Assembly: GCA_963921195.1 (NCBI GenBank)
Contig: OY992537.1
Coordinates: 98,476,736-98,540,735 of the forward strand
Source: Pegoplata infirma
Taxonomy: Eukaryota; Arthropoda; Insecta; Diptera; Anthomyiidae
Direction of reading: 5' to 3'
Length of the DNA stretch: 64,000 nucleotides
The notes beneath the pieces were generated by a model. It saw only the letters and a program-made list of their open reading frames with translations. It was not told the origin of the DNA and made no database searches. The translations under genes and the position numbers were made by a program. Positions 2,045-61,139 of the stretch are shown here, piece after piece (position 1 is the stretch's first letter; each line of letters opens with the position of its first letter).

Positions 2045-2740
2045 ATTTGTATAAACGAAATCTTATGACTGATAAACTCTATATAGTTCTGCTTTGGATT
2101 GAAAAAAATAGTGGAGAGCATTGGTGAGTGCATGTTGCACTACTTTACATCTATCAAAGTCTCGAACTGTGAACTCATTATAATTGAGTCGAGTTCGTGC
2201 CAAAGCCGGGCAGTGACACATGATGTGTTCAATGGTCTCCTCGACGCCTGGTGTCTCGCATCTTTTGCAGCTTGCGTCCGTAATAAGGCATGGCATGTTT
2301 CCTGTCAAGACAGTGTCCCGTAATTAAACGTACTACATTCTATTCTCGTAAGTGAAAGTAAGAATTTAGTTCCTACTAAATCATAGCATGACCACAAAAT
2401 TCTGCTTATACGACTTGTTCCAAGTTCCCTCCATCTTCGATTTGCCTTGGCGACAGTAAGGGAATTTCGTTTTAGGTTGTAATGCTGGAGTGGCGGTGAA
2501 AGCATTATGTCGCAACCTATGTCATCTGCTCCAAGTTTTGCGAGTTCATCTACTTTCTCGTTTTCTTCTATTCCTTCGTGCCCTGGTACCTATAATAAGG
2601 TAACCTTATTATTAAAGCACAGTTGTTTTAAATTTTCGTAACACTTCAAAACCGTTTTTGATTTAATTTGGTAGCTCAAGATTGTCTTTAGAGCAGCTTG
2701 ACTATCGACGAAGAAACAGTCAACCAGTGGAAAAGTTTAT
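2045..2740 (-). pseudogene. Type-B LINE 3' end: RNase H domain plus CCHC motif, degenerate
   Basis: Read on the minus strand from 2740 down, the fragment shows an RNase H fold signature. VDSQAALKTIL at 2682-2709 holds the second catalytic Asp region. It is followed by VPGHEGIEENEKVDELAK at about 2530-2590, where the final Asp of ..VDELA is the last catalytic residue. A tryptophan/arginine-rich linker comes next (2305-2505, containing RWRELGTSRISRIL). The C-terminal C-x2-C-x10-H-x2-C knuckle (C14, C17, H28, C31 of the frame at 2063-2308) ends in HCPALARTRL. RNase H would remove the RNA strand during reverse transcription; the knuckle presumably binds nucleic acid. A frameshift near 2305 splits the protein. 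The RNase H plus CCHC order fits the I/Loa-type superfamily. The same type lies at 8456-8951. Confidence 0.85.
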
Positions 2741-2819
2741 CCTCAGCGTCTTATATTTTTTGTTCCGATCTAATAGATGCAAAGTAGTACGGACGTGTTG
2801 AATTAGAAGTTACTGCTAA

Positions 2820-3718
2820 AGCTTCTAGAATAACATCTCGAAAGGATTATGTTATTTTAGTCCCTAAATTCGAAGAGACAAGACAGCTTGAACGACAGAT
2901 AAACGAACCTTTTCCGTAATGTGATGTGCGATCAACTGGACAATCGACAACAAATGGTTGTGATCTACTATACAACCGAGTGTTTTAAACAAAAACTCAG
3001 ACCCTGGGACATCCCACATTCCGACAATGCTCTAATGAGTCAATAGAGTCCGGTACCCTATTGTCATTGCTAAGCATCAATACACAATACCTTCGCACAC
3101 GGTTCAAAATATCCAAACTAGACTTTGAAGCCCGTGCCTATTCATAATAGTTGTATTCCATCTTCGGTCGGATATAAGTGGTATAAATAGTAAGGAGATC
3201 GGATGAGGTGAAAAACTTCTTAAAACGGTTTAAAAAACCGAATCACTTGAATGCTTCTTTCGACACTTGAAAAAACGAACTTATTTAGGTTAGGTTAGGT
3301 TAACCTAACTTATTTAACGGACCTCACACTTATTTTAATGCCCAGAACATTAAGAGTGTCCGATTCCCCAATACTTATACGACACATATGCACAGATGAC
3401 GCTGTTCGATCCACAGTCCTGTGGGTAAACATACAGCATTAGGTTGACTTTATTCGCAAGACCCTACTCTGACATTGTCAAGAGGTCTTGGTTAAGATTA
3501 TATTTGATAATCTGTCGCTTGCCCTTAACCTCAACAAGGTTTGGACTACGATCAATGGAAAATTAATGACAAATGTTGCTGTCATCTGCAAAAGAGTCGA
3601 TAGGATTTGAAGTTCGACTTAACAGGTCGTTAAGAAAAAGAGTAGGAGAAAGAGCAGAACTTTGCGGTATCCCTGATTGAAGCCGACACTTGTTCGATGA
3701 GAACCCATCTATACAAAC
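2820..3718 (-). pseudogene. Jockey-like LINE reverse transcriptase (type J), degenerate, with a 20-bp tail insertion
   Basis: Minus-strand translation from 3718 down gives the core of a Jockey-type RT: LNDLLSRTSNPIDSFADD (catalytic F/YADD at about 3570-3580) followed by SNICH, then VEVKGKRQI, a segment reading ESDTLNVLGIKIS near 3340-3380, then YPTED near 3160. The C-terminal thumb has SLDILNRV near 3110 and the tail motif VDCPVDRTSHYGKGSF near 2900. These parallel the plus-strand copy at 7300-11370 motif by motif. Multiple stops and frame changes make it a pseudogene. A 20-bp insert flanked by a 9-bp direct repeat interrupts it at 3278-3315 (separate entry). The 5' side abuts a type-A LINE fragment at about 3720. 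Confidence 0.85.
3278..3315 (-). mobile_element. 20-bp (AGGTT)n insert flanked by 9-bp direct repeats
   Basis: AACTTATTT occurs at 3278-3286 and again at 3307-3315. Between them lie the 20 bases AGGTTAGGTTAGGTTAACCT. Outside the repeats the Jockey-like RT sequence continues on both sides. The simplest reading is a LINE insertion truncated so far that only its pentameric tail was copied, with a 9-bp target-site duplication. Confidence 0.7.
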
Positions 3719-3719
3719 A

Positions 3720-3985
3720 CGTTTTTTTTAGTAACTCTGGCAAAAGAAATTTGACTGCACATTAATCTCAGCTCAGCGTGTTTTCCTATAAAGCAGTGTC
3801 CGGAAATTACAGTATCCACTGTCGAAATCTCTTCCCTTGAAAGCTATATGAGCGCACTTGTACACTTCTGATTAAGAGAAGGTCAAATCTGTCGTTTAGT
3901 CACACACGTTCATCCATGTACCTATCTCTGATCAGTTTTCGTCGCAAAACAAAGACGCTTATTTGCTTGCAAGTTTCTAGAGGCA
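3720..3985 (-). pseudogene. Type-A LINE fragment (RNase H linker region)
   Basis: Minus-strand sequence begins at the MPLETCKQ codons (near 3985) and continues through the linker, with NQK..TS at about 3850 and a decayed ITGHCLIGKHA-like box near 3790. It stops at 3720 where the Jockey-like RT begins. Its 5' edge directly abuts the (AACCT)3 tail of the next copy (3985-4001), so the copies are head to tail. Stops and frameshifts throughout. Confidence 0.7.
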
Positions 3986-5400
3986 TAGGTTAGGTTAGGT
4001 TATAAGTGGCTGCTGACTTTAAACTCTGAGGTCCGTTGTTATACCATGGGACCGTAATAAGTTCCCCTACTAGTCCCTGCCGTTAAACAAATTTGAGCTC
4101 CTTATGAAACTCCTGAGACATTGAATTTTGACATCCGACAAATCAGAAAGATCGTGCAGCTGCCTAAATCCCAGTAAAGCAAGTCACTGACAAGAAAGTG
4201 CCGGGCAATGGCAGATAAAGTGTTCGAAAGTATTCAACTCCTCCTCAAAAATTCGTTTGCCGGCATATTTAATCGCTATGCGTGCTTTCCTATAAGACAG
4301 TGTCAGGTAATTACAGCAACCATCGTTGAAATGTGTGTTTTGGGACCCATACAAATCGTATGTCAAACTTAATCATCTTATTCAAAGAAGTTGACTGTCG
4401 GAATAGATGTTTATTGTGGTTGTAGAGAAGATATTGCAACTCAACCAGTCAGCCACTTCCTTTATTGGCAGCATCTTTGCCTAGTAAAAACTGCAATGAT
4501 CTGACAATCTTCGAGCTAGGCTCAACCCAAGCTCTTCAGGAATAGACTACGAAGCCCACTAATTCGTGTAGCTTCGGTCCATCCGTGTAAAAATCCATTG
4601 AATCTCCACCACCCGGAATGCCCGACTCCCCGTGGGAGTCATACCATCACATTCCATAGAGGCATACCGACACATTCCAATTCCATTGGAACCTGTAAGG
4701 TAGTTCCCAGTTTTACAAGCTAATCGGCTTTGCAATTCCCTAAAACGTCTCTTTGCCCTGGGACCCACATGATTCGTAAGTCAAACAGCTTGGCCATCCA
4801 ATTCAAAGACGGACAGCAGTTAAGGGCAGATATTGATTTAGATCAATATCTGGGACTTGACCGCGACTTGACTGTTGGAATAAATGTTGACTGCAGTTGT
4901 GGACAAGACATTTCAACTTAACCAGTCAGCCACTTCCTATTATTTCATTTTTGCTGCTGGAGACGACGTGGCATCGTCAAGATTTCTCTATTGTCAAAAT
5001 ATTATGCATCAATGTCTTCATAAGAAGCTACGGACGATTAGGTCAGTTAAGAGCAGATCTTGTTTTCAGAAATACTTGGACGCGGCTTGACTTTCGGAAT
5101 AGATGTTGACTGCGGTTGTAGACAATACATTGCAATTCAATCAGTTAGCCACTTCCCTTATTGCCAGCATCTATGGTTAACACTGCAATGATCTGGCAAT
5201 CCACGAGCCAGACTCAACCTAAGCTCTCCCGAATAGACTCCGAAGCCCACTTATTCGTGTGATTTCGATTTACTTGTGTAAAAAAATTATAGAAGCTCCA
5301 CTACCAGGAATGACCTTCATCCAAGACTCCTTGGATGGTATTATAGTGGTATAGTGACGCTCAAAAAGACTCTTAAGGGAACACAGTCCACATTTTGTGA
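3985..5400 (-). pseudogene. Tandem, truncated type-A LINE 3' ends (RNase H plus CCHC), at least three restarts
   Basis: On the minus strand the N-terminal part of an RNase H domain (TDG..., GFGVYS, DHCSVF, YSDSQAA) restarts near 5350, near 4960 and near 4640. Between them are RNase H C-terminal pieces (MWVPGQRD near 4760, GNCKAD near 4735). The last copy runs to EELNTFEHFICHCPALSCQ (4184-4260) and then to the family 3' UTR ending in (AACCT)3 at 3987-4001. Each copy is broken by stops. Repeated restarts on the same strand point to local tandem duplication or repeated insertion rather than a single element. They are too decayed to encode protein. Confidence 0.75.
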
Positions 5401-5906: not shown

Positions 5907-7260
5907 ACCTCATTTCGCCGGCAGATTTCAAATATCAGACTACATCAAACTTCGTTTAAACTTAGCCCAGATTCCAAAAAACTCTGTCAATGCCCTCCTT
6001 AAAATCATTTTCGGTCTTTACAGGACTTTTTACAAATTTTAACTGAACACTGGTGACACCAAATGCAGTTTCATCGTCATTATCGCACACATATTTGCTT
6101 TTGTTGTTGTTGTCGTCGTAACCGTCATCATAGCATCGCAAGAAGAACAGTTTGGAAAATGTTAACTTAACCAAAAATAAAACCGAAATTTATGGTAAAG
6201 TCATCTTGTTTAACGGCTTACAAAACAATGTTGCCTTGTATCACACAAATTCGTGTATTTCGATTTACGATTATATGGGTATTTATGCTTTTTTGTTTTT
6301 TTGTTGTAGTTGTTTGGCTTTCATTCGGCTCGTACGACGTCTTCCTTTAACTTGTTTCAAGATGTTGTTGATAGTTTTGGCTTTTAAATATTTTGAATGG
6401 TTTTTGGTTGTCATTTACATTTAGACTTTTTGAAGGAAATATAGTAAAAAAAAGCAAAAAAAAAACGAATAAAGGCTAGACTTTTGGCGGGACAATAACC
6501 AAACAGCATACAATGTACGCAGCAAAATGCTGGTTGATGTTTGGAAATGTTTGAGTGGCCAAAAAAAAAAAAAGTTAAGCGTTTCTACCGAAATACTATA
6601 TCTTACACATGCTTGAAACACAAATCTTGTCTTCTTGGAAAAACGAAAAAAAAAAATCGTAAACCAGACATAAAGTTGTATACAATGCTTGTTTTTTTCT
6701 TGCTGTATTTGGTTAAAATCATACTACACATACCGCCTAAGAGCCAGCCAGTCAGTCGTCCCAAGTCTGGTGGTTTTTGGCCGGCCGACTGTCATCACTG
6801 CATGCAATTTTAGTACGAACAAGGCAAACAACAAACAAAAACAACTGGCAACCAGGCGACTTAAATCGTGTTTCAAAAGTTTTTTTTTCTGCTTTTAATA
6901 TTATATGGAATGGATTTTTTTTTAAGTTTTTCTGCCATTCTTGAAATCTTTATGTGTGTTTTTAGTATTTATTTTTGGACTTTTAACCTGATACTTAACA
7001 TTTTTTTGTGTTCGGTGTGCTACAAAAAAAAAAAAATGCAACAAACCTTAATTATGGTCGGCTTAAAGAAGTTGACTTTGCACAGAAAAAAAATTGTATT
7101 TGTGGTTGTTAAGTAGTTTTTTTTTAAGGAAATACCTTTAAATTACTGAAATGTTAATCTGAAGTTGGGTATTTAGAAAAAGAATATTTGAAATTTTTTG
7201 TAAATTTTTTAATGTTTTTAAGAACTTATGTTGAAATTTATTTTTGTGAGTCATATTAAC
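5907..7260. other. Gene-free AT-rich stretch
   Basis: No domain-bearing frame. The minus frame at 5962-6174 (70 codons) encodes a D/N-rich run driven by a TTGTTGTCGTCG-type microsatellite at about 6098-6125. It could be a piece of a low-complexity exon, but it has no recognisable family and I do not annotate it as a gene. Frames between 6421 and 7116 are phenylalanine/lysine-rich translations of T and A runs. Confidence 0.5.
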
Positions 7261-9194: not shown

Positions 9195-10690
9195 TGACAA
9201 AAAATGGACCTAATTGTCAGTAAAATGAAGTCAAATCTTAAAAAACAATGTCTCAGAATCGTACTCTTTTCTAAAAAAATTCTCAGAATCTAAAACTTTC
9301 TATAAGAAAAATGTCTGAGAATCTAAGACTTTTTTATAGTAATAATGTCTTAAAATATTGGCCTTTTTCTCAGAATCTATGACTTTTTCTATAGGAAAAA
9401 TGTCTCAGAATCTGAGACTTTTTCTATAAAGAATTCACAGAATCTGAGGCTTTTCTATTTGAAAAATGTTTCAGAATTTGAGAACTTTCTGTAGAAATAA
9501 TGTCTCTGGATCTGAAAAAATGTCTTAAAATCTGAGATTTTTTCTACAAAAAAATTCTTAGAATCTGGGGCTATTCTATATGAAAAATGTTTTAGAATCT
9601 TAAAACTTTCTGTAGGAAAATTTCTCAGAATTTTTCTTACAATCTTTGAAAATGTCACTGAATTTTATACTTTTTTTACGAAAAATGTCTCAGAATCAAC
9701 AAATTTTACTTAAGGAAAATTATCTCTAAATCTAAGATTTTGTGTATAGGAAAAATGTCTCATTTTCAGAGACACAAGCTGAGACTTTTGGTACAGAAAA
9801 ATGCTCAAAATCTGAGACTTTTTCTATTGTAAAAATATATTTTTGTATAAGAATAATGTCTCAAGATCAGAGTATTTTTCTATGGGAAAAATATTTCAGA
9901 ATCTGAGACTTTTTCTTTAGGAAAAATATCTTCCGAAGCTTTTTTTATATGAAAAATGTTTCAGAATCTGACAATTTCCTTTTTCTATTGTAAAAATATA
10001 TTTTTCTATAAGAATAACTTCTCAGAATCTGAGTATTTTTCTATGGGAAAAATTTCTCAGAATCTGAGACTTGTTCTATAGGAAAATGTCTAAGAATTTG
10101 AATTTTTTTCTATAGGACAAGTGTTTAGGCATCTGAGACTTTTCGAAAAAAAATGTCTCAAAATCTAAGAAATTTTCAATAGAAAAAATGTCTGAGAATA
10201 TAAGATATTTTCTATAGGAAAAATGTCGAAGAATCTGAGAATTTTGCTATAGGAAAAATGTCTTAAGAATCTGAAAGGAAAAATGTCTTAGAATTTTAGA
10301 CTTTTTCTATAGGAAAATTTTCTCAGAATCCGAGAATTTTTCTTTAGGAAAAAGGTTTTAGAATCTCAGATTCTGAATTATTTTTCTTATAGAAAAAGCG
10401 AAGATATTCTCAGAATCTAAATCTTTTTGTGTAGAATGTTTCAAAATCTGAGTAAATGTGCTAGACTAGAAAGATTTCAGATTCTGGGAAAATGTCTTAC
10501 AATCGGAGTTTTTTCTTTTGGAAAATAATTTTATGAATATGTTTACAGAATCATTTTTTAAAATGACTTTTTCAAGAGAAACGTTTTCCATTGGAAATAT
10601 GATTTAGAGTCTTTGACTTTTTCTATAACAAAAACAGTCTTAACTGGAAATTGTCATAAAATCATAGACTATTCTTTAAAAAAAAATCAG
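9195..10690. repeat. Palindromic satellite array, about 35-bp period (locus 1)
   Basis: Roughly 40 diverged copies of a unit alternating two near-palindromes: GTCTCAGAATCTGAGAC and TTTTTCTATAGGAAAAA. Adjacent well-preserved units (for example at 9368-9420) are 35 bp apart. Both strands read almost the same because each half-unit is self-complementary. The array lies inside a Jockey-like LINE. Related arrays are at 35530-35870 and 54230-54920. Confidence 0.9.
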
Positions 10691-22654: not shown

Positions 22655-23660
22655 TTTTTTGCGTCCAACCTGGAACACCGATCGAAAGACTTACGTTTTT
22701 TAAGACTATTGATTTAATTTTCTTTTAATTTTTCTTTTTTACATGAATTTTGAGCTTTCCTTAGTTTATAGAAATTTAAAATTTTTGGCGCCCAACCTGG
22801 GGCCGCACTCAATATTTGATTTTTCGAGATATTGAGAAATATTTTTCTATTTATAAATGATTTCACCAAATGGCTCGTCTGCAAAGCATTGCTTTGAATT
22901 AATTAAAAAATATATTTTTTTCAATATTGGTAATTTAGAAATTTATCGAAGCTTTATCTTATTATTGATTAAATTTTCTTTTATTCAAATCTTTTTTATA
23001 GGAATTTTGAGTTTTCCTAAGTTTATAGAAATTTCATATATTTAAATTTGTTTAGGGCCCTGCCTGGGGCATCACTCAAAATTTGCATTTCGAGATCTTG
23101 AGAAATATTTTTCTGTTTATAATTGATTTCACCAATCGCTTGTCAGAAAACATTGCTCTGAATTAATTATTTTTTTTCAATTTTGTTAATTTCGAAATTT
23201 ATTGAAGCTTTATCTTATTATTGATTAAATTTTCTTTTATTTAAATCTTTTTTACAGGATTTTTGAGCTTTCCAAAATTTATAGAAATTATATGTATTTA
23301 AATTTTTTGGCGCCCAACCTGAGGCCCTACTCAATACTTGCTTTTTCGAGATCTTAAGAAATGTTTTTCTATTTATAATTGATTTCAGAAAAACGGCCGT
23401 CTGCAAAGCATTGCTCAGAGTTAATTAACGAAGTATTTTTTTTTTTCAATTTTGTTAATTTCTAAATTTAACGAAGTTTCATCTTTTTAATTTTTTTTTA
23501 CGCCCAACCTGGGCTGTCATTGAAAGACTTGCACTTTTATAGATTAAGAATTTTATATGTTTTTTAAAGGTGTTTTTTTTAATTTATGGAAGTTTCATCA
23601 CCTTATTTTTTTTTTGGCGCCCAACCTGGGGCGACTCTCGAAAGACTTGTGTTTTTGAGT
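22655..23660 (+). repeat. Irregular tandem array carrying a tRNA-Lys-like primer-binding motif
   Basis: TGGCGCCCAACCTGGGGC occurs exactly at 22786-22803 and 23615-23632, with one change at 23308-23325. Weaker forms lie near 22660, 23053 and 23499. Between them, blocks with TTTTCGAGAT.TTGAGAAAT, ATTGATTTCACCAA and GCAAAGCATTGCT repeat with spacing of about 255-267 bp in the middle of the array. The motif differs at one position from the complement of the 3' end of fly tRNA-Lys(CUU), TGGCGCCCAACGTGGGGC, used by some LTR retrotransposons to prime minus-strand synthesis. Probably the decayed, tandemly copied leader region of such an element; no gag or pol was found. Confidence 0.7.
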
Positions 23661-24348: not shown

Positions 24349-24357
24349 TCAATGCAA

Positions 24358-24363
24358 CCTTAC
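24358..24363 (-). promoter_or_regulatory. 5' splice site of the Snoo exon
   Basis: Minus strand reads AAAG then GTAAGG, a strong donor. The preceding codon AAG is complete, so the intron is phase 0. The coiled-coil heptads (LDELKEVEMKEQLKAQQEI) are clearly interrupted here, which supports splicing rather than a real C-terminus four codons later. Confidence 0.85.
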
Positions 24364-25677
24364 CTTTCTTTTTAAATAATTTATCTCCTGTTGCGCCTTC
24401 AGCTGTTCCTTCATTTCCACCTCCTTCAACTCATCCAATATTTTTTGATATTTTTCACGATTCTCCACATCCAAGGCAACATGTAGATAATCATGCCAAT
24501 TCCTCGAATCAAAACCCCAATGACAAGTACGATTTTCCACTTTACGATGCACATGACCAACAAATTTCTGTGGCGAAAACCATCCCTTACATTCCAAGCA
24601 CATAATGCAAGTTGGCTTCTGATACGAATACATATCCGGGGTACATATACCCTCACACTTGCCAAAGCAACGATGATAAACCTTAAATGAAATAGCTCCT
24701 TTGGGTATATCCTCCACATTAATGTAACTATTGCGATCGGAACGATGCAAAAGTATAGCACATAGACGTTCGGCATCGGTGCGTGTTATCAAACCGGATG
24801 ATTTAACGTCCGAAGGTAAAATTTTAGCGGCCTTAAATTCCATTAACTGATCAGGAGTACACTGGGAACAAAATACGCCCAAATCATCAAAACTACGATT
24901 GATTTGTTCTAAAGAGAACTCAGCCAAGACATTATTTAAAAATTGTGGCAAACAAAGACGCATTTCACCGCCCAATGAAAAACAACCTATAGTTTTACCC
25001 TCTAAACGTGTTTCATACAGTTCTCCGGAACCCGAATCGGCCGAAGAGAGTATAGGTTGTGATACCTCGGGTGGAGGAGGTGGCATTATTTTAATAGAGG
25101 GTGGTACGACAACGGGACCTTGTATGGAGGAAGGTAACGATGGTAACTCTAAAGGGAGATCATGTGGTGGTGGTGCAGGTTCTGGCGAAGTCATTATTTC
25201 TTTTTTTATAAGAGGCAAGGCAGGATTAATGTTAATTGTTGATGACAACGACGATGATGATAATGAAGTTGGTAAAATTGTTGTTTGTTGTTGATGGTGT
25301 TGTTGTTGTGTTGGTGGTGGCGGCGGTTGCAGTGTTGGCATATTATTATGTATTGCATTTGTGTTAAGAGGGCAGTGAGCCGTTTTAATAACATCACAAG
25401 AACTATTACGCATTGTAACCAATCCATGATGCATTTCCTGTACCAATGATCCGGATGAGCCATTATTAAGGCTTACATCTAACGGACAGGAAAAATTTGT
25501 ATTTGTTTGTGCTTGTAAGTTGCCCGTTAAGGTTACCGCTACAGCTGATGAAGACGACGACGACGACGATAAGGAATTGGAATTTAAAGAGTGACCAGGA
25601 CCTTGTAAACTTTTGGGAGCACTTGTTTGATATTTTTTCAACACTGTGTGTATATTGGGCGTAACGTATTCGGTCAT
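24364..25677 (-). CDS. Snoo: Snoo (Ski/Sno family Smad co-regulator), first coding exon, partial gene
   Basis: Encodes 438 residues of the fly Ski/SnoN homologue, a nuclear co-regulator that binds Smads and tunes TGF-beta/activin versus BMP signalling. Residues 5-30 (TPNIHTVLKKYQTSAPKSLQ...) resemble the R-Smad-binding N-terminus of Ski. 31-210 is low complexity: Ser run 37-44, Pro 118-122, Gln/His 124-131, Pro-rich 163-203. About 213-312 is the Dachshund-homology domain (GCFSLGGEMRLCLPQFL, CSQC at 270-273, LITRTDAERLC). About 326-402 is the SAND-like Smad4-binding domain with zinc-type Cys/His (C337, C341, C357, C360, H375, H377, C385). 405-438 begins the coiled coil. The ATG is fixed by an in-frame TAA three codons upstream. 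The exon ends AAAG|GTAAGG, phase 0, at 24364; reading on gives a false stop after VRLH. Later exons were not seen. Confidence 0.93.
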
Positions 25678-28600
25678 GTTGAGTTAAGCGCCACCACAAA
25701 AAATAAGGGAAGTATATTTTTTTATAATAATAAAACTTCCGTTATTATCGAGAAAAACCAATTAAATAAATGATTATTTTAAGACTTTGCACTCTTTATT
25801 TTTAATCAATTTCAAAAAGATTTAGCTTTTTGTTTAACTGTTTAGTTAAGTCAATTTCTTAAGAAATTGTATAATTTTATTTATAGATAACATTTTTTTG
25901 GGGTTTTTAAATAATTTTATTTAGGAAATTTTATTTAATTTGTTTAAATTTTATAAATTTTTATAAACTTTTTTTGGATTTTATTTAAAATTTTCTTTGA
26001 TATTTTTATTTACACATTTTTCATTAAATTTTTCGATTATTTTTTTGTAATAATTTGGCACGTTTAATAAAAATATTTTTTTTTTTGTAAATTTTTCACA
26101 CTTTGATTTGCATTTATGCCGTCGGCATTTTTTTTTCTTTACTTATTTCTTGCACCTTATATTTTGTTTTAAGAATATTTTTTTTGAATTTTTCTTATTA
26201 ATTTTTGCTTACATTTTTAGATTTTCAGCACCAAAATACAACAAATTTTACGTACTTTTTCTTTTTTTTCTTTCTTCTTAAATTTGTGACAATTTTGTTT
26301 GTTATTTTCTTGAATTCAGGCTCTTTTTTTAAATTTTTTGCTTAAAAAAAAAAAAATTTTTTTTTTTTTTTTTTTTCGTTTTTTTTTTTTTTTTTTTTTT
26401 TTATTCACACAAATTTAACTCTTTTTTTTTGTTAATATTGATTGTGTTATTCACGCAATTTTTTTAAAGGAAAAATACTTTTTTTTCCAAGATAAGATAA
26501 TCACTTTTTATTCACATTCTTTTTAATGGCGAAAAAAAAGCCGACGGTTTAGTTGAAAAAAGCTTTTTTCGTACTAAAAGGTTTTTTTTTTGCATTTATT
26601 GGTTTGTTTATTTTTGTTATTGAAATGGAATTAGTGATGAGAGACAATGAAGAAGAAGAAATGTCAAAACAAAATTCCAATTAGGTTTTTTTTGTTGTTG
26701 TTTTTGTTTATATTTATTATAATTTTGGTGTTCGTGTGTCAGCGTTTTTTGAAGTATTAGATGATGAGTTTTTTTTTTGTCTAAAGATGCAGATACTAAT
26801 GCTTCTTCTTTTTGGTGTTTGACATGAACATCATTGTTATTGTTTTGTTTTTTTAAATAACGGTGTGTGTTTTAGGTTAAACGAGAGAGACCAGCCAACA
26901 AACACACTGTAAATTTTAAGTGGAGATATTTTATAGAGAGCGCAAACATTGCACAGATATCAAAAAGAGAGTTATTTTTATTTATTTTATTTGTGTAGTA
27001 GTTATTGTTGTATTGTGGCGCGTGTTTTGCTCCCCCTGTTTGGCGTTTTAATAATTTATATTATGTACATTACATATTTATCTATTTATTACTCGTGTTG
27101 TTGTATATTGTTGTAAAAAAAAATCCACTAAACATTTGATTAGGTGTAGACATAAAACGAGACGTTAGTTAGCAGAAACCGCGTAGAATTTAGAAGAAAA
27201 ACAGAAACACCCAAACAAACTTCACGTTTTTTTTTTTTTTAACACAAAACGTGTAAATGTCTGGCGATTTTTTTTGTTGTTTTACTCATGCGTTTAGTAA
27301 CTCATCTTCTGTGAGTTTTTTTTTTTTAGAGATCGTAATAAAACGCGACGTAAAAACTTAAACACAAAAAAAAAACAATAAATCCCAACGCAAAGAATTG
27401 TTCTTCTTTAAAAAATCTTTCTTTCTAAATTTAAATCTTTACAAAAACATCTAAAAAAAACAGAAAATCTTTAAATATTTTTCTTCCTCCAATTTGTTGT
27501 TAGAGTATTATGCATTTTGTTTTTCTTTTTGTAGCCTGTGTCGCCTATTTTGTTTTATTTTATTTGTTATTTGCACAAATTCTTAAAAAAAGCATTTAAT
27601 TTCAAACACATTTTATATATATATATTTGGTGTTGTTGTTGTTAAGCAAATTTTTTCTTCTTTTTTTTATTATTTTTTTAAATTTTTATTTTGCATTTTT
27701 TTTGCAATTTTTTCCTCTTCTTATCATTTTTATTTTCTCTTGCTTTACACTTTAAAAATACTCAAGATTTTTTTCTTTTTGTTACGCTTTTTCATTACTT
27801 TTTTTATATTTTTTTCTTGTATAAATTTTGCAAAATATTTAAAATTTTTTATAATTTTCTTCATTCACTTTTATATTTCACTTTTTCCTTTTATTTTATT
27901 TAATTTGCAAAACGTCAAAAATGCTTAATTTTCATCATTTTATTATTGTCGTTTTATTATATTTTCATTATTTTTCATTATTCTTGTATTATTTTTATCG
28001 TCAAGCTTCTTTTTATTCATACACTCTTCAACACTTCTCATGTACAATACATTTTATAAAAAAAAAAAACTATATAATATTTTTTCAGATACACACGCGC
28101 TGCGCTTCCGCACGTTGCTTTTTTGTCGACGGCATACGTTCGATTAAATTATTGCGAATGTTAAATTTTGCCACTTGCTCAATTTTTTTTATTTCTTCGA
28201 AAGATTTATGTTACTCTCTCTCACACCCTCTTTTCTTGATTTGGCCACAAAAAAAAGCTCGTTTCTCTTGTGTGAAAATGGTGGAAACTGTCAAACACAC
28301 ACAAAAAACATCAAAACAATAGCAACGAAATGTCATCAAAGCATAATGTGAAAAAAGCTTTGTATATAAGTATTGCCATACAGATGTTTTATTTACAGTT
28401 ACTTATGCAACACTGGGTCTTAAGCTTTTTTTTTAAAGTTGCCAACTTAACGTAATTAATTAGTTTGTAGGATAAAATTAATTTATGTGGAGTTCATAAG
28501 TACTTACGACCTTAAACAAGTTGTTTAACAAAACACCAGTAACAGAATAAAAACGCAACGGAAACAGAACAAAGACTTTTTTAAACATGTTGCTCTTGAA

Positions 28601-35529: not shown

Positions 35530-35870
35530 GAATTTTTCTAAAAAAAAAAAATGTCTCAGAATCTGAAAGACTTTCTAGAGCAAAAATAAATCTAAGTCAA
35601 AATATATCTCTTAAGAAAACATGTCAATGAAAAAAACAAAAAAATATCTCAGACTTCTAGAATTTTTTCATGGAAACATATATCAAAATCCTAGGATTTT
35701 TTAATAAAAAAAAAGGAAAAGTCTCAAATTCTGAAATTTTTCCTACAAAAAATATCTCTGATTTGGAGAAAAGGTTTCAGGTTCTGAAAAATTTTCCCAA
35801 AGAAAAAGTCTCAGATTTTGAGTAATTTTTCCTATAGAAAATGTCTCCGATTCTGAGAATAGTTTTGGAT
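35530..35870. repeat. Palindromic satellite, locus 2 (short, diverged)
   Basis: About ten diverged units with TCTCAGAATCTGA / TCAGATTTTGAG and TTTCCTATAGAAAA. Orientation seems to switch inside the patch, as expected for a self-complementary unit. Confidence 0.75.
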
Positions 35871-46162: not shown

Positions 46163-46559
46163 AAGAAATTTATGGAAGTTAACGTTTCGTTTTTTTCGTT
46201 TTGACCAGGCTTCGTATTTGCTCACTCTTTTTCTTTCAGTTTCATGAAACTCTAAAATGAAAATAAAAATTGTATATCTCACTCATGAACTATGAAATAA
46301 TTTGATTGTTTTCATTTTTCGTTGCTTGTGTGTGTGCAGTGAAAGAAGAAGTAATCAAACGAGAATTGAATGAATGAAACTTTTAAATAATTTTCATTCT
46401 CATTTTAGGCAAATGAGACTTTCATTTCGTGAGAATTTTTATTTTATTTTCAGTCTCACGAAAATGAAATGAAAGTTAGTTTCAGCGTATTTCAGTTTCA
46501 TGCACACGGATTAAATATTTTTTTCTTTTATTCAATAGTTTACGATTTTGGTTGTGCCG

Positions 46560-47690
46560 AAGCTAATTTTTCAAAAAAGTTTAATATTTTAAAAAAAGTA
46601 AATTTTTTTTAAAAAACTTCAGTTTTTCAAAAAAAAAAGCTGAATTTTTCAAAAAAAAACATAATTTTTTAAAAAAGTTGATTTTTTTAAAAAAAAATAA
46701 TAGTTTTTTGAAAAACTTTAATTTTTCAAAAAAAGTTGATTTTTTCAAAAAAAAGTTAATTTTTTCAAAAAAGATGAATTTTTCAAAAAAAAGATAAATT
46801 TTTCAAAAAAAAAATAATTTTTTTTAAAAAGTTGATTTTTTCAAAAAAAATTTAGTTTTTTAAAAAACTTTAATTTTTCAAAAAAAGTTGATTTTTTCAA
46901 AAAAAAATTGATTTTTTCAAAAAAAGTAGATGTTTTCAAAAAAAGTTGATTTTTTCAAAAAAATAAAATTTTTCAAAAAAAGTTAATTTTTTCAAAAAAG
47001 ATGAATTTTTCAAAAAAAAGCTAAATTTTTCAAAAAAAAAAATAATTTTTTTAAAAAGTTGATTTTTTCAAAAAAAAATTTAGTTTTTTAAAAAACTTTA
47101 ATTTTTCAAAAAAAGTTGATTTTTTCAAAAAAAAATTGATTTTTTCAAAAAAAGTTGATTTTTTCAAAAAAAGTTGATTTTTTCAAAAAAAGTTGATTTT
47201 TTCAAAAAAATTAAATTTTTCAAAAAAAAGTTAATTTTTTAAAAAAAATTTAATTTTTCAAAAAAGTTGAAATTTTAAAAAAAAGGTTAAATAAGTTAAA
47301 TTTTTAAAAAAGTAAATTTTTTTTTAAAAACTTCAGTTTTTCAAAAAAAAAACTGAATTTTTCAAAAAAAAATAATTTTTTAAAAAAGTTGATTTAAAAA
47401 AAAAAAAAATAGTTTTTTGAAAAACTTTAATTTTTTTAAAAAAAGTTGATTTTTTCAAAAAAAAAAAATAATTTTTCAAAAAAAAGTTAATGTTTTAAAA
47501 ACATTAACATTGTTAAGAAAACAATTTTAAATATTTCAACTTTATTTAAAAAAAAAAATAAATTAAAAAAAAAAATATTTTTAAAAAAAAATTAAAAAAA
47601 GTGTAATTTTTCAAAAAAAATCAAAAAAGTTGAATTTGAATGAAAAATATGTTTTTTTTTTTGGAAAAAATGTGTTTTTTTAATTTTTTT
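46560..47690. repeat. Short T/A-rich tandem repeat, left arm of the giant palindrome
   Basis: Unit about 18-22 bp of the form GTTGATTTTTTCAAAAAA with variants (GTTAATT, AAATTTTTC). TTTTTTCAAAAAA is close to a palindrome. A higher-order period is visible: the block 46735-46930 recurs with few changes at about 46980-47160. Confidence 0.85.
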
Positions 47691-47699
47691 TTTTTTAAA

Positions 47700-49597
47700 T
47701 TTAAAAACTAGCGAAGATAAAATTGATCTATGATCGCTAAAGAGGTTATGAAGTGAAAAAAAATAACAAATTAACGTTCTTTTGCTTGTATCTTGATTAT
47801 TTAAAAATTTATTCGCAATTTAAAAATCTAGCAAAGAAAAATTGATCTGGGGTCGCTAAAGGGGGTTATGAATGGGTAAGAATGATAAAAAAATATCATA
47901 AATTTTTCTCTATCCTGATTATTTTTTGAAATATAATTAAAATACCAAATTAACGTCGTTTTGCTTGTATTTTAATTATTTAAGAAGTTATTCGCAATTT
48001 AAAAATCTAGCAAAGAAAAATTTGATCTGGAACCGCTTAAGAGGTTACACAGGGGTGAAAATGACAAAAATATCATCCATTTTGCTCTACATCGATTAGT
48101 TTTTAAGATATAATTAAAATACCAAATTAACGTCCTTTTGCTTGTATTTTAATTATTTAAGAAGTTATTCGCAATTTAAAAATCTAGCAAAGAAAAATTT
48201 GATCTGGAACCGCTTAAGAGGTTACACAGGGGTGAAAATGACAAAAATATCATCCATTTTGCTCTAAATCGATTAGTTTTTAAGATATAATTAAAATACC
48301 AAATTAACGTCCTTTTGCTTGTATTTTGATTATTTAAGAAGTTATTCGCAATTTAAAAATCTAGCAAAGAAAAAATTGATCTGGAACCGCTTAAGAGGTT
48401 ACGCAGGGGTGAAAATGACAAAAATATCATCCATTTTGCTCTACATCGATTAGTTTTTAAGATATAATTAAAATACCAAATTAATGTCCTTTTGCTTGTA
48501 TTTTGATTATTAAAGAAGTTATTCGCAATTTAAAAATCTAGCAAAGAAAAATTTGATCTGGAACCGCTTAAGAGGTTACGCAGGGGTGAAAATGACAAAA
48601 ATATCATCCATTTTGCTCTACATCGATTATTTTTTGAGATATAATTAAAATACCAAATTAACGTCCTTTTGCTTGTATTTCAATTATTTAAGAAGTTATT
48701 CGCAATTTAAAAATCTAGCAAAGAAAAATTTGATCTGAAACCGCTAAAGAGGTTACGCAGGGGTGAAAATGACAAAAATATCATCCATTTTGCTCCACAT
48801 CGATTATTTTTTGAAATATAATTAAAATACCAAATTAACGTCGTTTTGCTTGTATTTTAATTATTTAAGAAGTTATTCGCAATTTAAAAATCTAGCAAAG
48901 AAAAATTTGATCTGGAACCGCTTAAGAGGTTACACAGGGGTGAAAATGACAAAAATATCATCCATTTTGCTCTACATCAATTAGTTTTTAAGATATAATT
49001 AAAATACCAAATTAACGTCCTTTTGCTTGTATTTTGATTATTTAAGAAGTTATTCGCAATTTAAAAATCTAGCAAAGAAAAATTTGATCTGGAACCGCTT
49101 AAGAGGTTACACAGGGGTGAAAATGACAAAAATATCATCCATTTTGCTCTACATCAATTAGTTTTTAAGATATAATTAAAATACCAAATTAACGTCCTTT
49201 TGCTTGTATTTTGATTATTTAAGAAGTTATTCGCAATTTAAAAATCTAGCAAAGAAAAATTTGATCTGGAACCGCTTAAGAGGTTACGCAGGGGTGAAAA
49301 TGACAAAAATATCATCCATTTTGCTCTACATCGATTATTTTTTGAGATATAATTAAAATACCAAATTAACGTCCTTTTGCTTGTACTTCAATTATTTAAG
49401 AAGTTATTCGCAATTTAAAAATCTAGCAAAGAAAAATTTGATCTGGAACCGCTTAAGAGGTTACGCAGGGGTGAAAATGACAAAAATATCATCCATTTTG
49501 CTCTACATCGATTATTTTTTGAGATATAATTAAAATACCAAATTAACGTCCTTTTGCTTGTACTTCAATTATTTAAGAAGTTATTCGCAATTTAAAG
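47700..49597 (+). repeat. 177-bp tandem repeat, left arm (about 10.5 units)
   Basis: Units contain AAATTAACGTCCTTTTGCTT, TATTCGCAATTTAAAAATCT, GATCTGGAACCGCTTAAGAG and AAATGACAAAAATATCATCC. ACCAAATTAA begins at 48121, 48298, 48475 and 48652, i.e. exactly 177 bp apart. The outermost two units (47700-47950) are the most diverged, as expected if homogenisation is strongest in the middle. Confidence 0.95.
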
Positions 49598-51470
49598 ATC
49601 AAATTTTTCTTTGCTAGATTTTTAAATTGCGAATAACTTCTTAAATAATTGAAATACAAGCAAAAGGACGTTAATTCGGTATTTTAATTATATCTTAAAA
49701 ACTAATCGATGTAGAGCAAAATGGATGATATTTTTGTCATTTTCACCCCTGCGTAACCTCTTAAGCGGTTCCAGATCAAATTTTTCTTTGCTAGATTTTT
49801 AAATTGCGAATAACTTCTTAAATAATTGAAGTACAAGCAAAAGGACGTTAATTTGGTATTTTAATTATATCTTAAAAAATAATCGATGTAGAGCAAAATG
49901 GATGATATTTTTGTCATTTTCACCCCTGCGTAACCTCTTTAGCGGTTTCAGGTCAAATTTTTCTTTGCTAGATTTTTAAATTGCGAATAACTTCTTAAAT
50001 AATTGAAGTACAAGCAAAAGGACGTTAATTTGGTATTTTAATTATATCTCAAAAAATAATCGATGTAGGACAAAATGGATGATATTTTTGTCATTTTCAC
50101 CCCTGCGTAACCTCTTAAGCGGTTCCAGATCAAATTTTTCTTTGCTAGATTTTTAAAATTGCGAATAACTTCTTAAATAATCAAAATACAAGCAAAAGGA
50201 CGTTAATTTGGTATTTTAATTATATCTTAAAAACTAATCGATGTAGAGCAAAATGGATGATATTTTTGTCATTTTCACCCCTGTGTAACCTCTTAAGCGG
50301 TTCCAGATCAAATTTTTCTTTGCTAGATTTTTAATTTGCGAATAACTTCTTAAATAATTAAAATACAAACAAAAGGACGTTAATTTGGTATTTTAATTAT
50401 ATCTTAAAAACTAATCGATGTAGAGCAAAATGGATGATATTTTTGTCATTTTCACCCCTGTGTAACCTCTTAAGCGGTTCCAGATCAAATTTTTCTTTGC
50501 TAGATTTTTAAATTGCGAATAACTTCTTAAATAATTAAAATACAAGCAAAACGACGTTAATTTGGTATTTTAATTATATTTCAAAAAATAATCGATGTGG
50601 AGCAAAATGGATGATATTTTTGTCATTTTCACCCCTGCGTAACCTCTTTAGCGGTTTCAGATCAAATTTTTCTTTGCTAGATTTTTAAATTGCGAATAAC
50701 TTCTTAAATAATTGAAATACAAGCAAAAGGACGTTAATTTGGTATTTTAATTATATCTCAAAAAATAATCGATGTAGAGCAAAATGGATGATATTTTTGT
50801 CATTTTCACCCCTGCGTAACCTCTTTAGCGGTTCCAGATAAAATTTGTCTTTGCTATATTTTTAAATTGAGAATAACTTCTTAAATAATTAAAATACAAG
50901 TAAAAGGACGTTAATTTGGTATTTTAATTATATCTTAAAAACTAATCGATTTAGAGCAAAATGGATGATATTTTTGTCATTTTCACCCCTGCGTAACCTC
51001 TTTAGCGGTTCCAGATCAATTTTTTCTTTGCTAGATTTTTAAATTGCGAATAACTTCTTAAATAATTAAAATACAAGCAAAAGGACGTTAATTTGGTATT
51101 TTAATTATATCTCAAAAAATAATCGATGTAGAGAAAAATGGATTATATTTTTGTCATTTTCACCCCTGCGTAACCTCTTTAGCGGTTCCAGATCAAATTT
51201 TTCTTTGCTTGATTTTTGAATTGCGAATAACTTCTTAAATAATTAAAATACAAGCAAAAGGACGTTAATTTGGTATTTTATTTATATCTCAAAAAATAAT
51301 CGATGTAGAGCAAAATGGATGATATTTTTGTCATTTTTACCCTTGCGTAACCTCTTTAGCGGTTCCAGATCAAATTTTTCTTTGCTAGATTTTTAAATTG
51401 CGAATAACTTTTTAAATAATCAAAATATAAGCAAAGGGACGTCAATTTAGTATTTTAATTTTTTTTTTTA
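49598..51470 (-). repeat. 177-bp tandem repeat, right arm (about 11 units, inverted)
   Basis: The same unit in reverse orientation. A variant unit marked by CGTCG and GCTCCACATCG in the left arm (about 48790-48845) has its mirror (CGACG, CGATGTGGAGC) at about 50540-50600, displaced by roughly one unit plus the central spacer. The two arms are therefore true inverted copies, not independent arrays. Confidence 0.95.
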
Positions 51471-52260
51471 AAATTAAAACTTTTTGAAAAAATTTTACTT
51501 ATTTTAAAAATTAAAACTTTTTTTGAATTTTTTTTTTTAAAAATTCAACTTTTTTTAAAAAGTCAGCTTTTTGTAAACTTTTTCTGAAAATTAAAGTTTT
51601 TTGAAAAAATTAAGACTTTTTTTAAAAAATTTAACTTTTTTGATTTTTTTTTTTAAACAAACTTTTTTGGAAAACTTCAATTTTTTTATGAATTCAACTT
51701 TTTGGTGAAATTTTTTTTTTTTTTAAATTTAAGTTTTTTGAAAAGTTTTCACTTTTTTAAAAAATTTACAACTTTTTGAAAAAATTTGACTTTTTTAAAA
51801 ATTAAAACTTTTTTGAATTTTTTTTTTTTTTTTTTGAAAAATTAAATTTTTTTGAAAAAGTCAACTTTTTGAGTTTTTTGAAAAAGTAGACTTTTTTAAA
51901 AAATTTTTTACTTTTTTGAAAAACTTTAATTTTTAAATTCAACTTTTTGTGATTTTTTTTTATTTAAATATAAGTTTTTTGAAAAAATTTTACTTTTTTG
52001 AGAAATTTTGTTAATTTTGAAAAATTAAAATTTTTTTAAAAAAATTCGATTTTTTTTGAAAAATTAAATTTTTTTTTTAAAAATTCGATTTTTTTTGAAA
52101 AATTAAAATTTTTGTAAAAAATTTAAATTTTTGTAAAAAATTAAAATTTTTTGAAAAATTAAAGTTCTTTGAAAATATCATATTTTTTTAACTTTTTTGA
52201 AAAATTCAACTTTTTATGAAAAATTTGTTTTTTTTTGAAAAATTAAAGTTTTTTGAAAAA
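51471..52260. repeat. Short T/A-rich tandem repeat, right arm of the giant palindrome
   Basis: AAAAAATTCAACTTTTT and TTTTTTGAAAAATTAAA type units, reverse complement of the left-arm units but more diverged and about 300 bp shorter. Confidence 0.8.
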
Positions 52261-52807
52261 TTATTTGTTCTAAATGGCTTGGTTTCCAAAAAAAAAAAAC
52301 AAAATCGTTAAATATTAAATTTTCCGTTAAAAATGTTTTTCCGTGAGAATGAAGCTGAAATGCAGATGAAACTGTCTCATTTCGTGCGCCACTTTCGTGT
52401 GCACGGAATATAAAAATCTCAAGCACACGAAAATGAAATATAAATGAAAATGAAATAATAAATGAAAATGAAACTTTTTTTTTAAGTTTCATTCATTCAT
52501 TCTCATTTGATTACTTCTTCTTTCACTGCACACACACAAGCAACGAAAAATGAAAACAATCGAATTTTTTCAAAGCACATAAAATGAAATGAAATTAAAA
52601 ACAAACAAAATTCATTTTCAAAAAATGAATGAATGTGCCAAAATGAAAGCTTCTTTCGTGAGCAAATACGTACTCTGGTTTTGACGCATGCTAACACTCA
52701 AAGTTTGCCAACAAAAAAGGCCTCTACTTACAGTGTTATTATTGTAATTATAATAAAAGTTCACCAACTTCAAATGCGTGTAAAAAAAAATCTAGCACCG
52801 ATATTTG

Positions 52808-54229: not shown

Positions 54230-54920
54230 TGGATGTTGAGACGTGAAGAAATGATTTTTTATAGGGAAAATGTCTTAGAATCTAAGACTTCTTTTTTACG
54301 AAAAATGTCTCAGAATATAAGACTTTTTTCGCATAGAAAAATTTTCAGATTCTAAGAACTTTTTTCCACAGAAAAAGTCTCAGATTCTGTGACCTTTGAC
54401 TATAGAAAAAGTCTCATATTTTAAAGCATTTTTGAGGAAGCATTCCTACAGAAAGGCCTGAAATTATTAGATTTGTTTTGTACTAAAAAAGTTTTAGATT
54501 CTGAGACCTTTTTTCTATAGAAAAATTATCAGATTCTTAGACCTTTTTCCAATAGAAAAAGTCTCAGATTCTCAGAAATTTTTCCTAAAGAAAAAGTCTC
54601 AGATTCTGAAACCTTTTACTGTAGAAAAAGTCTCAGATTCTAAGACTCTTCCTAAAAAAAGTCTCTGATTCTGAGATATTATTCCTATAGAAAAAGTCTA
54701 AAATTCTGAGGTTTTGAGTCCGTATTCCTATAGAAAAAATCTTACGTTCTGAGACATTTTTCCCATAGAAAATGTCTCCGATTCTTTGAACTTCTTCCAA
54801 TTGAGTAAGTTTTAACATCTGAGACTTTTTTTCAACAAAAAAGACTCAGATAAATAAGTCTCAAATTCAGATATTCTAAGACCGTTTTCCTATAAAAAAA
54901 GTCTCAGAGTCTTAGCCCTT
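54230..54920. repeat. Palindromic satellite array (locus 3)
   Basis: About 18 units with GTCTCAGATTCTGAGAC and TTTTCCTATAGAAAAA, the same two palindromic half-units as at 9195-10690. Here the predominant reading (AAAAAGTCTCAGATTCTGAG) is the reverse complement of the locus 1 form. Confidence 0.88.
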
Positions 54921-59164: not shown

Positions 59165-61139
59165 GGAACTTGTTAAGATGGCGGCCTTGACCCTAAATTT
59201 GATAAAATTTTGTGGGTTGGTAGAGGGGTCAAAAATACATCGAGTGGTACCAATTTCAAGGAGCGGTCACGCCCCCTTTCGGAGGGGCGGGGCTTCAAAG
59301 TTAAAAATTCTTTTGTAAATATCTTAAAAACTACTTGTCCTATTTGGACGAGATTAGTTGCATTCGAAAGCTTATACAAATACCTTTCAATAATGTCGAA
59401 GGTGTGACTCAGTTTAGTTAACCCCTTAAGTGCCAAAACCCGCTTTAAAAGTTTTTTGTCATGACTTTTTTTTAAAAATGGTTGATATCTCAAAACTGCA
59501 CGTATATAAGTACAAATTTAGACCAAACAGATTGGTAGCCAAGATATTAAGCTTTAATTTGAGCCAACCACTGGCGTTGTAGCTCTAAAATTAACCGAGA
59601 TATTAAAGGTCAAAGTTAGATTTTTTTTTTTTTGTTATGTTAAGAATTGATTTTACACTACTCTATTCTACTGGCATTGCTTCAATTTTTTTCTGCTGAA
59701 AACGGTTTTTTTTTGTTTTAATCTGACAATATACTGTAATAGCATAAATAAATTTCTTAAAACATGTTTTAAAACTTAAGTGAGAATAGACCTTAACCTT
59801 AGCGTACAAACTTAATAGGTTAAGCCCAAACGGCTTCGCTAAATAAAGTTTTTCTGCGTAGCGGCCTTCGGCCGGGCTTAGGGATTACAAACTCCATAGA
59901 TCCCTTTAGCGGCTTCGCTAAAGAAAGCTTTTCTGCGTACAAACTTTATAGGTTCAGCTCAAACGGCTTCGCTAAATAAAGCTTTTCTGCGTAGCGGCCT
60001 TCGGCCGGGCTTAGGAATTACAAACTCCATAGATTCCTTTAGCGGCTTCGCAAAAGAAACCTTTTCTGCGTACAAACTCCATAGGTTCAGCCCAAACGGC
60101 TTCGCTAAATAAAGCTTTTCTGCATAGTGGCCTTCGGCCGGGCTTAGGGATTACAAACTCCATAGATTCCTTTAGCGGCTTCGCTAAAGAAAGCTTTTCT
60201 GCGTACAAACTCCATAGGTTCAGCCCAAACGGCTTCGCTAAATAATGCTTTTCTGCATAGCGGCCTTCGGCCGGTATTAGGGATTACAAACTCCGTAGAT
60301 TCCTTTAGCGGCTTCGCTAAAGAAAGCTTTTCTGCGTACAAACTCTATAGGTTCAGCCCAAACGGCTTCGCTAAATAAAGTTTTTTTACGTAGCGGCCTT
60401 CGGCCGGACTTAGGGATTACAAACTCCATAGATTCCTTTAGCGGCTTCGCTAAAGAAAGCTTTTCTGCGTACAAACTCCATAGCTTCAGCCCAAATGGCT
60501 TCGCTAAATAAAGTTTTTCTGCGTAGCGGCCTTCGGCCGGGCTTAGGGATTACAAACTTCAGCCCAAACGGCTTCGCTAAATAAAGCTTTTCTGCGTACG
60601 GCCTTCGGCCGGGCTTAGAGATTACAAACTCCATAGATTCCTTTAGCGGCTTCGCTAAAGAAAGCTTTTCTGCTGGTTCAGCCCAAAAATTAGCACCAAA
60701 AATTTAACCCTTTATATCTCTGGTGTTAGAAGAGTTAGAGATTCGAATAAAAGACAAAATGAAAGCTTAGGAACTTGGCTACACACCTATGTGTTCCTTG
60801 TATGACCTTATATACGTAACATTTGTGAGATATTTAAAAATTAAAAAAAAAAAAATTAAAATCGCGTTTTGGTGCTTAACGGGATAATGAAATTTTTTTA
60901 TGTAAAGGAATGTTCGAAAGGAATTTCATCAAGCTTTCGAATGATACCAATTTCATTCAAATCGAATAAGTACTTTTTAAGATATTTAAGAAAAAAGTTT
61001 TAACTTTGAAGGCCCGCCCACTCGAAAGAGGGCGTGACCGCTCCTTGAAATTGGTGCCACTCGATGTATCTTTGACCCCTCTACCAAACCACAAAATTTT
61101 ATCAAATTAGGATCCAAGGCCCTAATCTTAACATATGCC
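59165..61139. mobile_element. Long-TIR element with 8-bp duplication, carrying the 133-bp satellite
   Basis: CTTACCTT at 59157-59164 and 61140-61147 flanks a 1975-bp element starting GGAACTTGTTAAGAT and ending ATCTTAACATATGCC. The arms (about 59165-59620 and 60690-61139) are inverted copies of about 450 bp, sharing ATTTGATAAAATTTTGTGG, CAAGGAGCGGTCACGCCC, TTAAGTGCCAAAAC and GTAGCCAAG. The tandem array occupies the centre. No transposase frame; the minus frame 59173-59493 lies in the arm and has no known domain. Confidence 0.85.
59820..60690. repeat. 133-bp tandem repeat (about 6.5 units)
   Basis: Each unit has two related halves. One is GGCTTCGCTAAATAAAGCTT...CGGCCTTCGGCCGGGCTTA, the other GGCTTCGCTAAAGAAAGCTT...TACAAACTCCATAG, so the unit itself arose by duplication. 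The hairpin CGGCCTTCGGCCG recurs near 59862, 59997, 60130, 60263, 60396, 60528 and 60601; the last interval is a short unit. The repeating 65-codon minus frames (60011, 60144, 60277, 60410, each 133 bp apart) are a by-product and not a protein family: 133 is not divisible by three, so the frame shifts every unit. Confidence 0.93.

Follow-up and report, generated by a model that had tools for sequence, protein, structure and literature searches.

A 6.5-kb palindrome of the fly Pegoplata infirma is a transposon copy, very probably a gene-less and internally deleted member of the hAT superfamily

The stretch of DNA analyzed here, called the window, comprises 64,000 nucleotides from the anthomyiid fly Pegoplata infirma (contig OY992537.1; C2:98476736-98540735 of the 1.38-Gb assembly in which the genome searches were made). 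At 46206-52677 it contains a palindrome that forms a 6,472-bp element, flanked on both sides by the perfect 8-bp duplication GTTTTGAC. An earlier note on this DNA had described two mirror-image arms, each built from a unique end, AT-rich 19-20-mers and a 177-bp array; this order holds, with the outer limits now corrected to the positions just given. The palindrome is genuine and represents one copy of a transposon. Its architecture is foldback-like in shape, not in lineage, with long inverted tandem-repeat arms and little or no middle. The evidence assembled below makes it very probable that the element is a non-autonomous, internally deleted copy of the hAT superfamily, derived from a gene-bearing form that resides in the same genome.

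The palindrome is good within the arrays and poor outside them, because the two AT-rich blocks differ in length and the left and right unique ends share only 75% identity (284 aligned columns). The arrays are regular, with 95% matches by Tandem Repeats Finder and 96.5 and 97.0% identity to the unit consensus, and they join at 49596/49597 with 1 bp of microhomology. A central spacer of about 25 bp had been noticed previously and proved to measure 24 bp, enclosed by perfect inverted repeats (Table 1). Treated as single-stranded DNA, the central 621 nt fold with a z of -58 relative to 20 shuffles. The mirrored variant unit pointed out in the earlier note, offset by about one unit, matches its counterpart exactly, and the adjacent units correspond as well, with the same one-unit offset. 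Across seven neighboring units, the order of variants agrees between the arms beyond shuffled orders (p = 0.002, permutation on shared variants at any offset); a cruder permutation on all mismatches gave p = 0.0076 at a fixed offset and p = 0.086 with the best of seven offsets. No stop-to-stop frame of at least 110 amino acids lies inside the element, the longest listed being 92 amino acids. Inspection of the element ends for short motifs yielded nothing firm, and a 36-base piece of the 177-bp unit had no exact match in IMG/VR.

Table 1. Parts of the palindromic element, in window positions
Feature	Position	Strand	Remarks
Target site duplication, left copy, GTTTTGAC	46198..46205	.	Perfect 8-bp match with right copy
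Left terminus, CAGGCTTCGTATTTGCTCAC	46206..46225	+	Exact start of 22 of the 40 scored genome matches
Left end, unique, 354 bp	46206..46559	+	99.7-100% identity in 17 other complete copies
Left-arm AT-rich block, ~19-20-mers, 1,138 bp, 11% GC	46560..47697	+	
Left-arm 177-bp tandem array	47698..49596	+	First unit degenerate
Variant 177-bp unit, left arm	48650..48826	+	Equals 50569-50745 on the opposite strand, 0 mismatches
Central perfect inverted repeat, left arm, 33 bp	49564..49596	+	
Central spacer, 24 bp	49597..49620	.	Itself right-array sequence
Right-arm 177-bp tandem array	49597..51460	-	
Central perfect inverted repeat, right arm, 33 bp	49621..49653	-	
Variant 177-bp unit, right arm	50569..50745	-	Offset by one unit relative to the physical center
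Right-arm AT-rich block, ~19-20-mers, 802 bp, 11.5% GC	51461..52262	-	
Right end, unique, 415 bp	52263..52677	-	99-100% identity (gaps aside) in 17 other complete copies
Right terminus, CAGAGTACGTATTTGCTCAC (other strand)	52658..52677	-	22-mer starting with CAGAGTACGTATTTGCTCAC: 69 genome occurrences
Target site duplication, right copy, GTTTTGAC	52678..52685	.	Perfect 8-bp match with left copy

A genome search with the left end returned 241 candidates, the best 40 of which were scored and match at 97-100%. Among these 40, 22 start exactly at 46206 (query position 17), 17 including the window's own extend 2-16 bases into the AT-rich flank, and one starts three bases later (query position 20). 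The right-end 22-mer was absent from the genome when written backwards as a control. Flanks were read for 37 copies, consisting of the window element, 20 long stretches, and 16 of the 19 remaining scored matches; the three left out (C1:101378816, C3:157298085, and C493:89350) have no exact right end listed. Stretches are cited by numbers with the prefix L. Complete copies were obtained from 17 of the 20 long stretches at once, and those in L020, L023, and L027, initially incomplete, were completed later; the short stretches L001-L008 surround eight of these left ends, with L001 representing the window copy, and do not count as extra copies. Other genomic copies of the terminal segment in a terminal inverted repeat arrangement thus exist, whose absence the earlier note would have taken as evidence against its proposal.

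Perfect 8-bp duplications border 34 of the 37 copies. All 18 complete copies, the window's included, carry them (lengths 3.8-8.6 kb), as do 16 of the 19 further copies, 18 of which have a listed length, between 5.6 and 21.7 kb; the remaining three comprise one with a single mismatch, one with none (L049), and one unscored owing to a damaged left end (L057). Mean divergence among the 18 complete copies is 0.16% at the left end and 0.48% at the right end, figures that are too low for the whole family because copies were chosen by left-end likeness. The phase at which the arrays are entered is likewise fixed, at 175 in 16 of 17 left arrays and at 171 in 18 of 18 right arrays. A perfect duplication also borders L013, a copy that has lost the left array; the palindrome may thus be dispensable for movement, unless the loss followed insertion. 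At C3:153052716-153059857 (flanks L049 and L050), the ends are recognizable and the two flanks are unlike; this copy could be the product of recombination between two copies and hence a possible rearrangement breakpoint.

Several traits of the family are those of hAT elements. Besides their length of 8 bp, the duplications are enriched for the pattern nTnnnnAn: T2 or A7 occupies 49 of the 70 half-sites in 35 duplications (p = 8e-9 against a base frequency of 0.36), and both are present in 17 of the 35, which marks a preference, not a rule. The termini read CAGGC... and CAGAG..., and those of hobo and Hermes also begin with CAG. Finally, a transposase with a hAT domain lies between the same ends in one copy other than the window's.

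That copy, at C3:217240140-217252815, spans 12,676 bp, is flanked by the duplication GTTATAAT, and shares its ends and inverted 177-bp arrays with the window element. Between the arrays, whose left member stops at unit phase 116 and whose right member starts at phase 138, is a middle of 5,363 bp in which three open frames, connected in frame through splice signals, give a predicted three-exon gene for a 612-amino acid hAT transposase. The spliced protein matches the hAT dimerization domain (PF05699) with an E-value of 2.9e-8, Hermes transposase structures with 1e-11 to 7.5e-11, and a Teleopsis dalmanni protein at 48% over 99% of its length. An independent genome search with PF05699, in which 150 of 946 candidates were scored, also hit the inside of this copy (E 7e-7). 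The catalytic-glutamate motif aligns with that of Hermes; the two aspartate motifs were recognized by eye only and were not aligned by the program, and the match to a BED zinc finger is weak and below the curated cutoff. A relative with a transposase between similar arms had been anticipated in the earlier note, which expected a P-type enzyme; the relative is present, and its transposase is of the hAT kind. P-type/THAP families gave no match to the frames of this copy at E-values up to 0.1. The enzyme encoded here would be the one that moves the gene-less copies. The genome as a whole is rich in hAT transposase domains, with at least 150 matches scored among the 946 candidates.

The centers of the palindromic copies are diverse. 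In the 25 copies with the center read, 20 central junction types were distinguished by unit phases and by eye (13 in 17 copies, 5 new ones in another 6, and 2 new ones in the last 2); the pairs window/L009 and L014/L070 were counted as different at nearly equal phases and may be related. One of the two centers read last, that of C2:89613434-89623002, consists of four array runs in alternating orientation. Five palindromic copies hold scraps of the transposase copy's middle at their centers. L026 retains 21 nt identical at 21 of 21 positions to transposase exon 2, and the left edge of the middle survives at phase 116 in L021 (164 nt, 98.8% identical) and in L025 (163 nt, 99.4% identical). Reversed scraps occur in L019 (67 nt of the same left edge) and in L012 (47 nt from the opposite edge, at phase 138). 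These five copies were therefore formed by loss of the middle, and the window copy itself has probably lost such a middle as well. The center is flipped in three copies, L018, L012, and L019; that of L018 is the junction of L017, L024, and L028 reversed, with 92.5-98% identity to the reverse complement as compared with 47-48% in the same direction.

In the parent form, the transposase gene lies between two 177-bp arrays in inverted orientation, with an AT-rich block outside each array and the left and right ends outermost. A transposase supplied by a gene-bearing relative would recognize the two ends, which are unlike each other, and move the copy by cut-and-paste, creating 8-bp duplications. 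After excision, the gap would be refilled using a sister template; were copying from both sides to halt early and the ends to be joined, the middle would be lost and the inverted arrays would become adjacent. The likeliest candidate for this deletion step is abortive gap repair, and its product would be a palindrome with its center at a random place within the arrays. Recombination between the inverted arms could additionally flip the center. As the gene lies between inverted arrays, an internal deletion yields a palindrome rather than an ordinary shorter element.

Long palindromes are known to break at the center, to be trimmed, and to be rejoined, and a competing account accepts the hAT family and places the origin of the varied centers after insertion, with the palindrome extruding or breaking at its center. 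It fits the observation that many copies agree in their outermost array units, position by position, while the inner units are shuffled and the centers differ. Likewise compatible are the 17 junctions examined, of which 3 have 1-8 nt of microhomology, 1 is blunt, and 13 contain fillers of 2-179 nt, and the perfect stems of 411 and 400 bp found near the centers of L014 and L026. Breakage alone, however, leaves the loss of the 5.4-kb middle unexplained, and the five scraps show that middle loss made the junctions in which they lie. Moreover, one junction is shared by L017, L024, L028, and L072 at different sites and another by L021 and L025, and a junction shared across sites is older than the insertions that carry it. 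We consider post-insertion breakage as the source of the centers possible rather than probable, although it may add to their variety. Several points nevertheless weigh against internal deletion of a hAT parent. The copies were picked from the top of a ranking by left-end likeness and are biased toward like, probably young ones; 1 of the 36 scored copies (L049) lacks matching flanks; and the gene, itself predicted from three open frames and their splice signals, occurs in 1 of the 27 copies whose middle or center was read. No scrap of the middle was found at 20 of the 25 centers read, the window's among them, where fillers below about 20 nt are too short to place. No movement has been observed, and within one assembly, deletion during gap repair is indistinguishable from later breakage at an unstable palindrome center.

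Accounts that dispense with the hAT family, or with a mobile element altogether, fare much worse. Assembly errors often take the form of inverted duplications and long arrays, so a read folded back on itself or a collapsed array might have produced the palindrome; the arms differ from each other, their ends by 25%, the window element has an exact duplication, and the same ends recur at 36 other loci, almost all of them flanked by exact duplications and differing in their centers where these were read, which makes an artefact highly unlikely. A satellite array inverted by chance and immobile would fit the satellite-like look of the 177-bp units, but the fixed outer ends, the fixed array entry phases, and the target duplications render this explanation almost untenable. 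In the earlier note, the palindrome was called a Foldback-like giant element; a mobile element with long terminal inverted repeats made of tandem repeats is indeed what was found, and the part that falls is the family, which is hAT and neither Galileo/P nor FB. FB foldbacks have a Mutator-type transposase and 9-bp duplications, and membership of FB/Mutator was rejected on the 8-bp duplications and the hAT transposase. Also proposed there was a Galileo-like member of the P superfamily. Long tandem-repeat arms and gene-less palindromic copies are known in Galileo (PMC4168063, PMC3573991), and three copies in D. willistoni have 8-bp duplications. Against this, the 34 perfect duplications found here are all 8 bp long and do not follow GTANTAC, and the sole transposase found between such arms is a hAT enzyme, so that we regard a Galileo-like identity as very improbable.

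Homogenization between the arms of a copy, to which the earlier note had thought the palindrome prone, is not visible. Among 341 full units, mean distances are 0.0480 within the same arm and 0.0495 between the arms of the same copy, as compared with 0.0485 and 0.0511 between copies (means that exclude copy pairs with a shared junction); units within a copy are hardly closer than units of different copies, and within-copy homogenization of the arms was rejected on this basis. Nearest neighbors lie solely in the own copy for 35 of the 341 units, a count for which no expectation was computed. The arms are not homogenized within copies at a visible rate; what is seen in its place are the three flipped centers and the loss of the middle, and exchange by flipping would explain the mirrored variants better than homogenization. 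If 70 and 58 mismatches are allowed, the stems of L014 and L026 reach 2.1 and 1.5 kb, respectively, suggesting that arms were copied recently in these two copies. The outermost right-arm units fall into two classes, one formed by L009, L011, L017, L018, L022, L024, and L028 and the other by the rest; in a letter code for units, one class starts with type W and the other with N-J-T, which suggests two subfamilies.

Further observations concern individual copies and the remainder of the window. Two very long copies with perfect duplications, C5:150508211-150529867 (21.7 kb; L076-L078) and C1:182691824-182702447 (10.6 kb; L079), have array runs that switch orientation within the stretches read, in which no transposase was found. 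L068 (C1:321750700-321753900) contains an insert of about 770 bp with its own inverted ends exactly at the palindrome center, apparently another small transposon. Foreign inserts are present in four copies (L011 at 2105-4718, L012 at 6675-7038, and L016 at 1434-1756 in element positions, and C3:132846337-132858982), of which that of L011 has open frames of 319 and 178 amino acids and another has a gag-pol-like frame. Other mobile elements seem to accumulate in the arms. Elsewhere in the window, part of a Ski/Sno gene lies at 24349-25683, with its closest named match in Lucilia cuprina (76% identity), followed by other calyptrates, a result that placed the host among the calyptrate flies. Six copies of a 133-bp tandem unit occupy 59802-60599 (92% matches), and a 256-bp tandem repeat is present in 2.8 copies at 22707-23427. 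Arrays of a nearly palindromic unit of about 35 bp, TCTCAGAATCTGAGA, are found at 9239-10370, 35767-35859, and 54255-54785 and possibly represent another dispersed repeat family.

Abortive gap repair was reportedly named by Rubin and Levy in 1997 for Ds, in which internal deletions are said to take place during gap refilling. The deletions proposed here would resemble those of Ds in arising while the gap is refilled. The parent of Ds is not known to have long inverted arrays, so that Ds deletions would give no palindromes. The 1997 work on Ds is a reference within PMC4678618.

Within the hAT superfamily, the Hermes/hobo group, with Hermes of Musca domestica, resembles the present family in its 8-bp nTnnnnAn duplications, in the match of its transposase structures to the predicted enzyme, and in having unlike ends. 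The terminal repeats of Hermes measure 17 bp (PMC10368747), in contrast to the kilobase-long inverted tandem-repeat arms described here, and the protein match is distant. According to the same source, Hermes with two left ends shows little activity and with two right ends none. A similar need for unlike ends would explain why the outer ends of the palindrome stay unlike while the arrays are interchangeable. One may thus picture the element as a palindrome generator, in which each failed gap repair yields a new palindrome with a new center, recombination flips the center, and the need for unlike ends keeps the ends distinct; we judge this picture to be evenly balanced between right and wrong. 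If correct, it would make the foldback architecture a repeatable outcome that evolved separately in hAT, P, and Mutator lineages. Among hAT elements, a resemblance in shape is also seen outside the insects: gadMor-hAT-1784 of the Atlantic cod is hAT-derived and gene-less and has inverted repeats of about 600 bp composed of 167-169-bp tandem units (PMC12368964). It differs in its vertebrate host and its shorter arms, and the parts of that paper drawn on mention no gene-bearing partner.

Likeness of architecture extends to other superfamilies. Galileo of Drosophila has long, internally repetitive terminal repeats and gene-less two-arm copies, for which its authors suggested sequence exchange; one copy of 9,021 bp consists of two long arms with repeats of about 140 bp (PMC4168063, PMC3573991). 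It differs in belonging to the P transposase superfamily, in duplications that are mostly the 7-bp GTANTAC (PMC4168063), and in having tandem repeats in some copies only. Tetris, a foldback element of Drosophila virilis, is gene-less, has a unique flank followed by tandem repeats in each arm, and generates duplications of 8-10 bp (PMC4079207). Its units are about 220 bp long versus 177 bp here, and the likeness is one of described architecture. For Tetris, no transposase-bearing copy was found, and its authors suggested Mutator membership. How foldbacks and multi-kilobase palindromes originate is in many cases obscure for want of a parent, Tetris being an example. Among the entries listed in searches of the open-access literature by title and abstract beginning, with Repbase, Dfam, and subscription papers outside their scope, there was no hAT foldback family in a fly together with its gene-bearing form. 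In P. infirma, one genome contains both the form with the gene and the copies derived from it, several of which retain pieces of the middle at the center, and the 20 natural central junctions in 25 copies make the formation, flipping, and stability of palindromes directly testable. Foldback shapes associated with other transposases are thereby joined by one of the hAT superfamily. Because Galileo and the hAT elements of cod are considered a cause of chromosome inversions, the family may be relevant to these as well.

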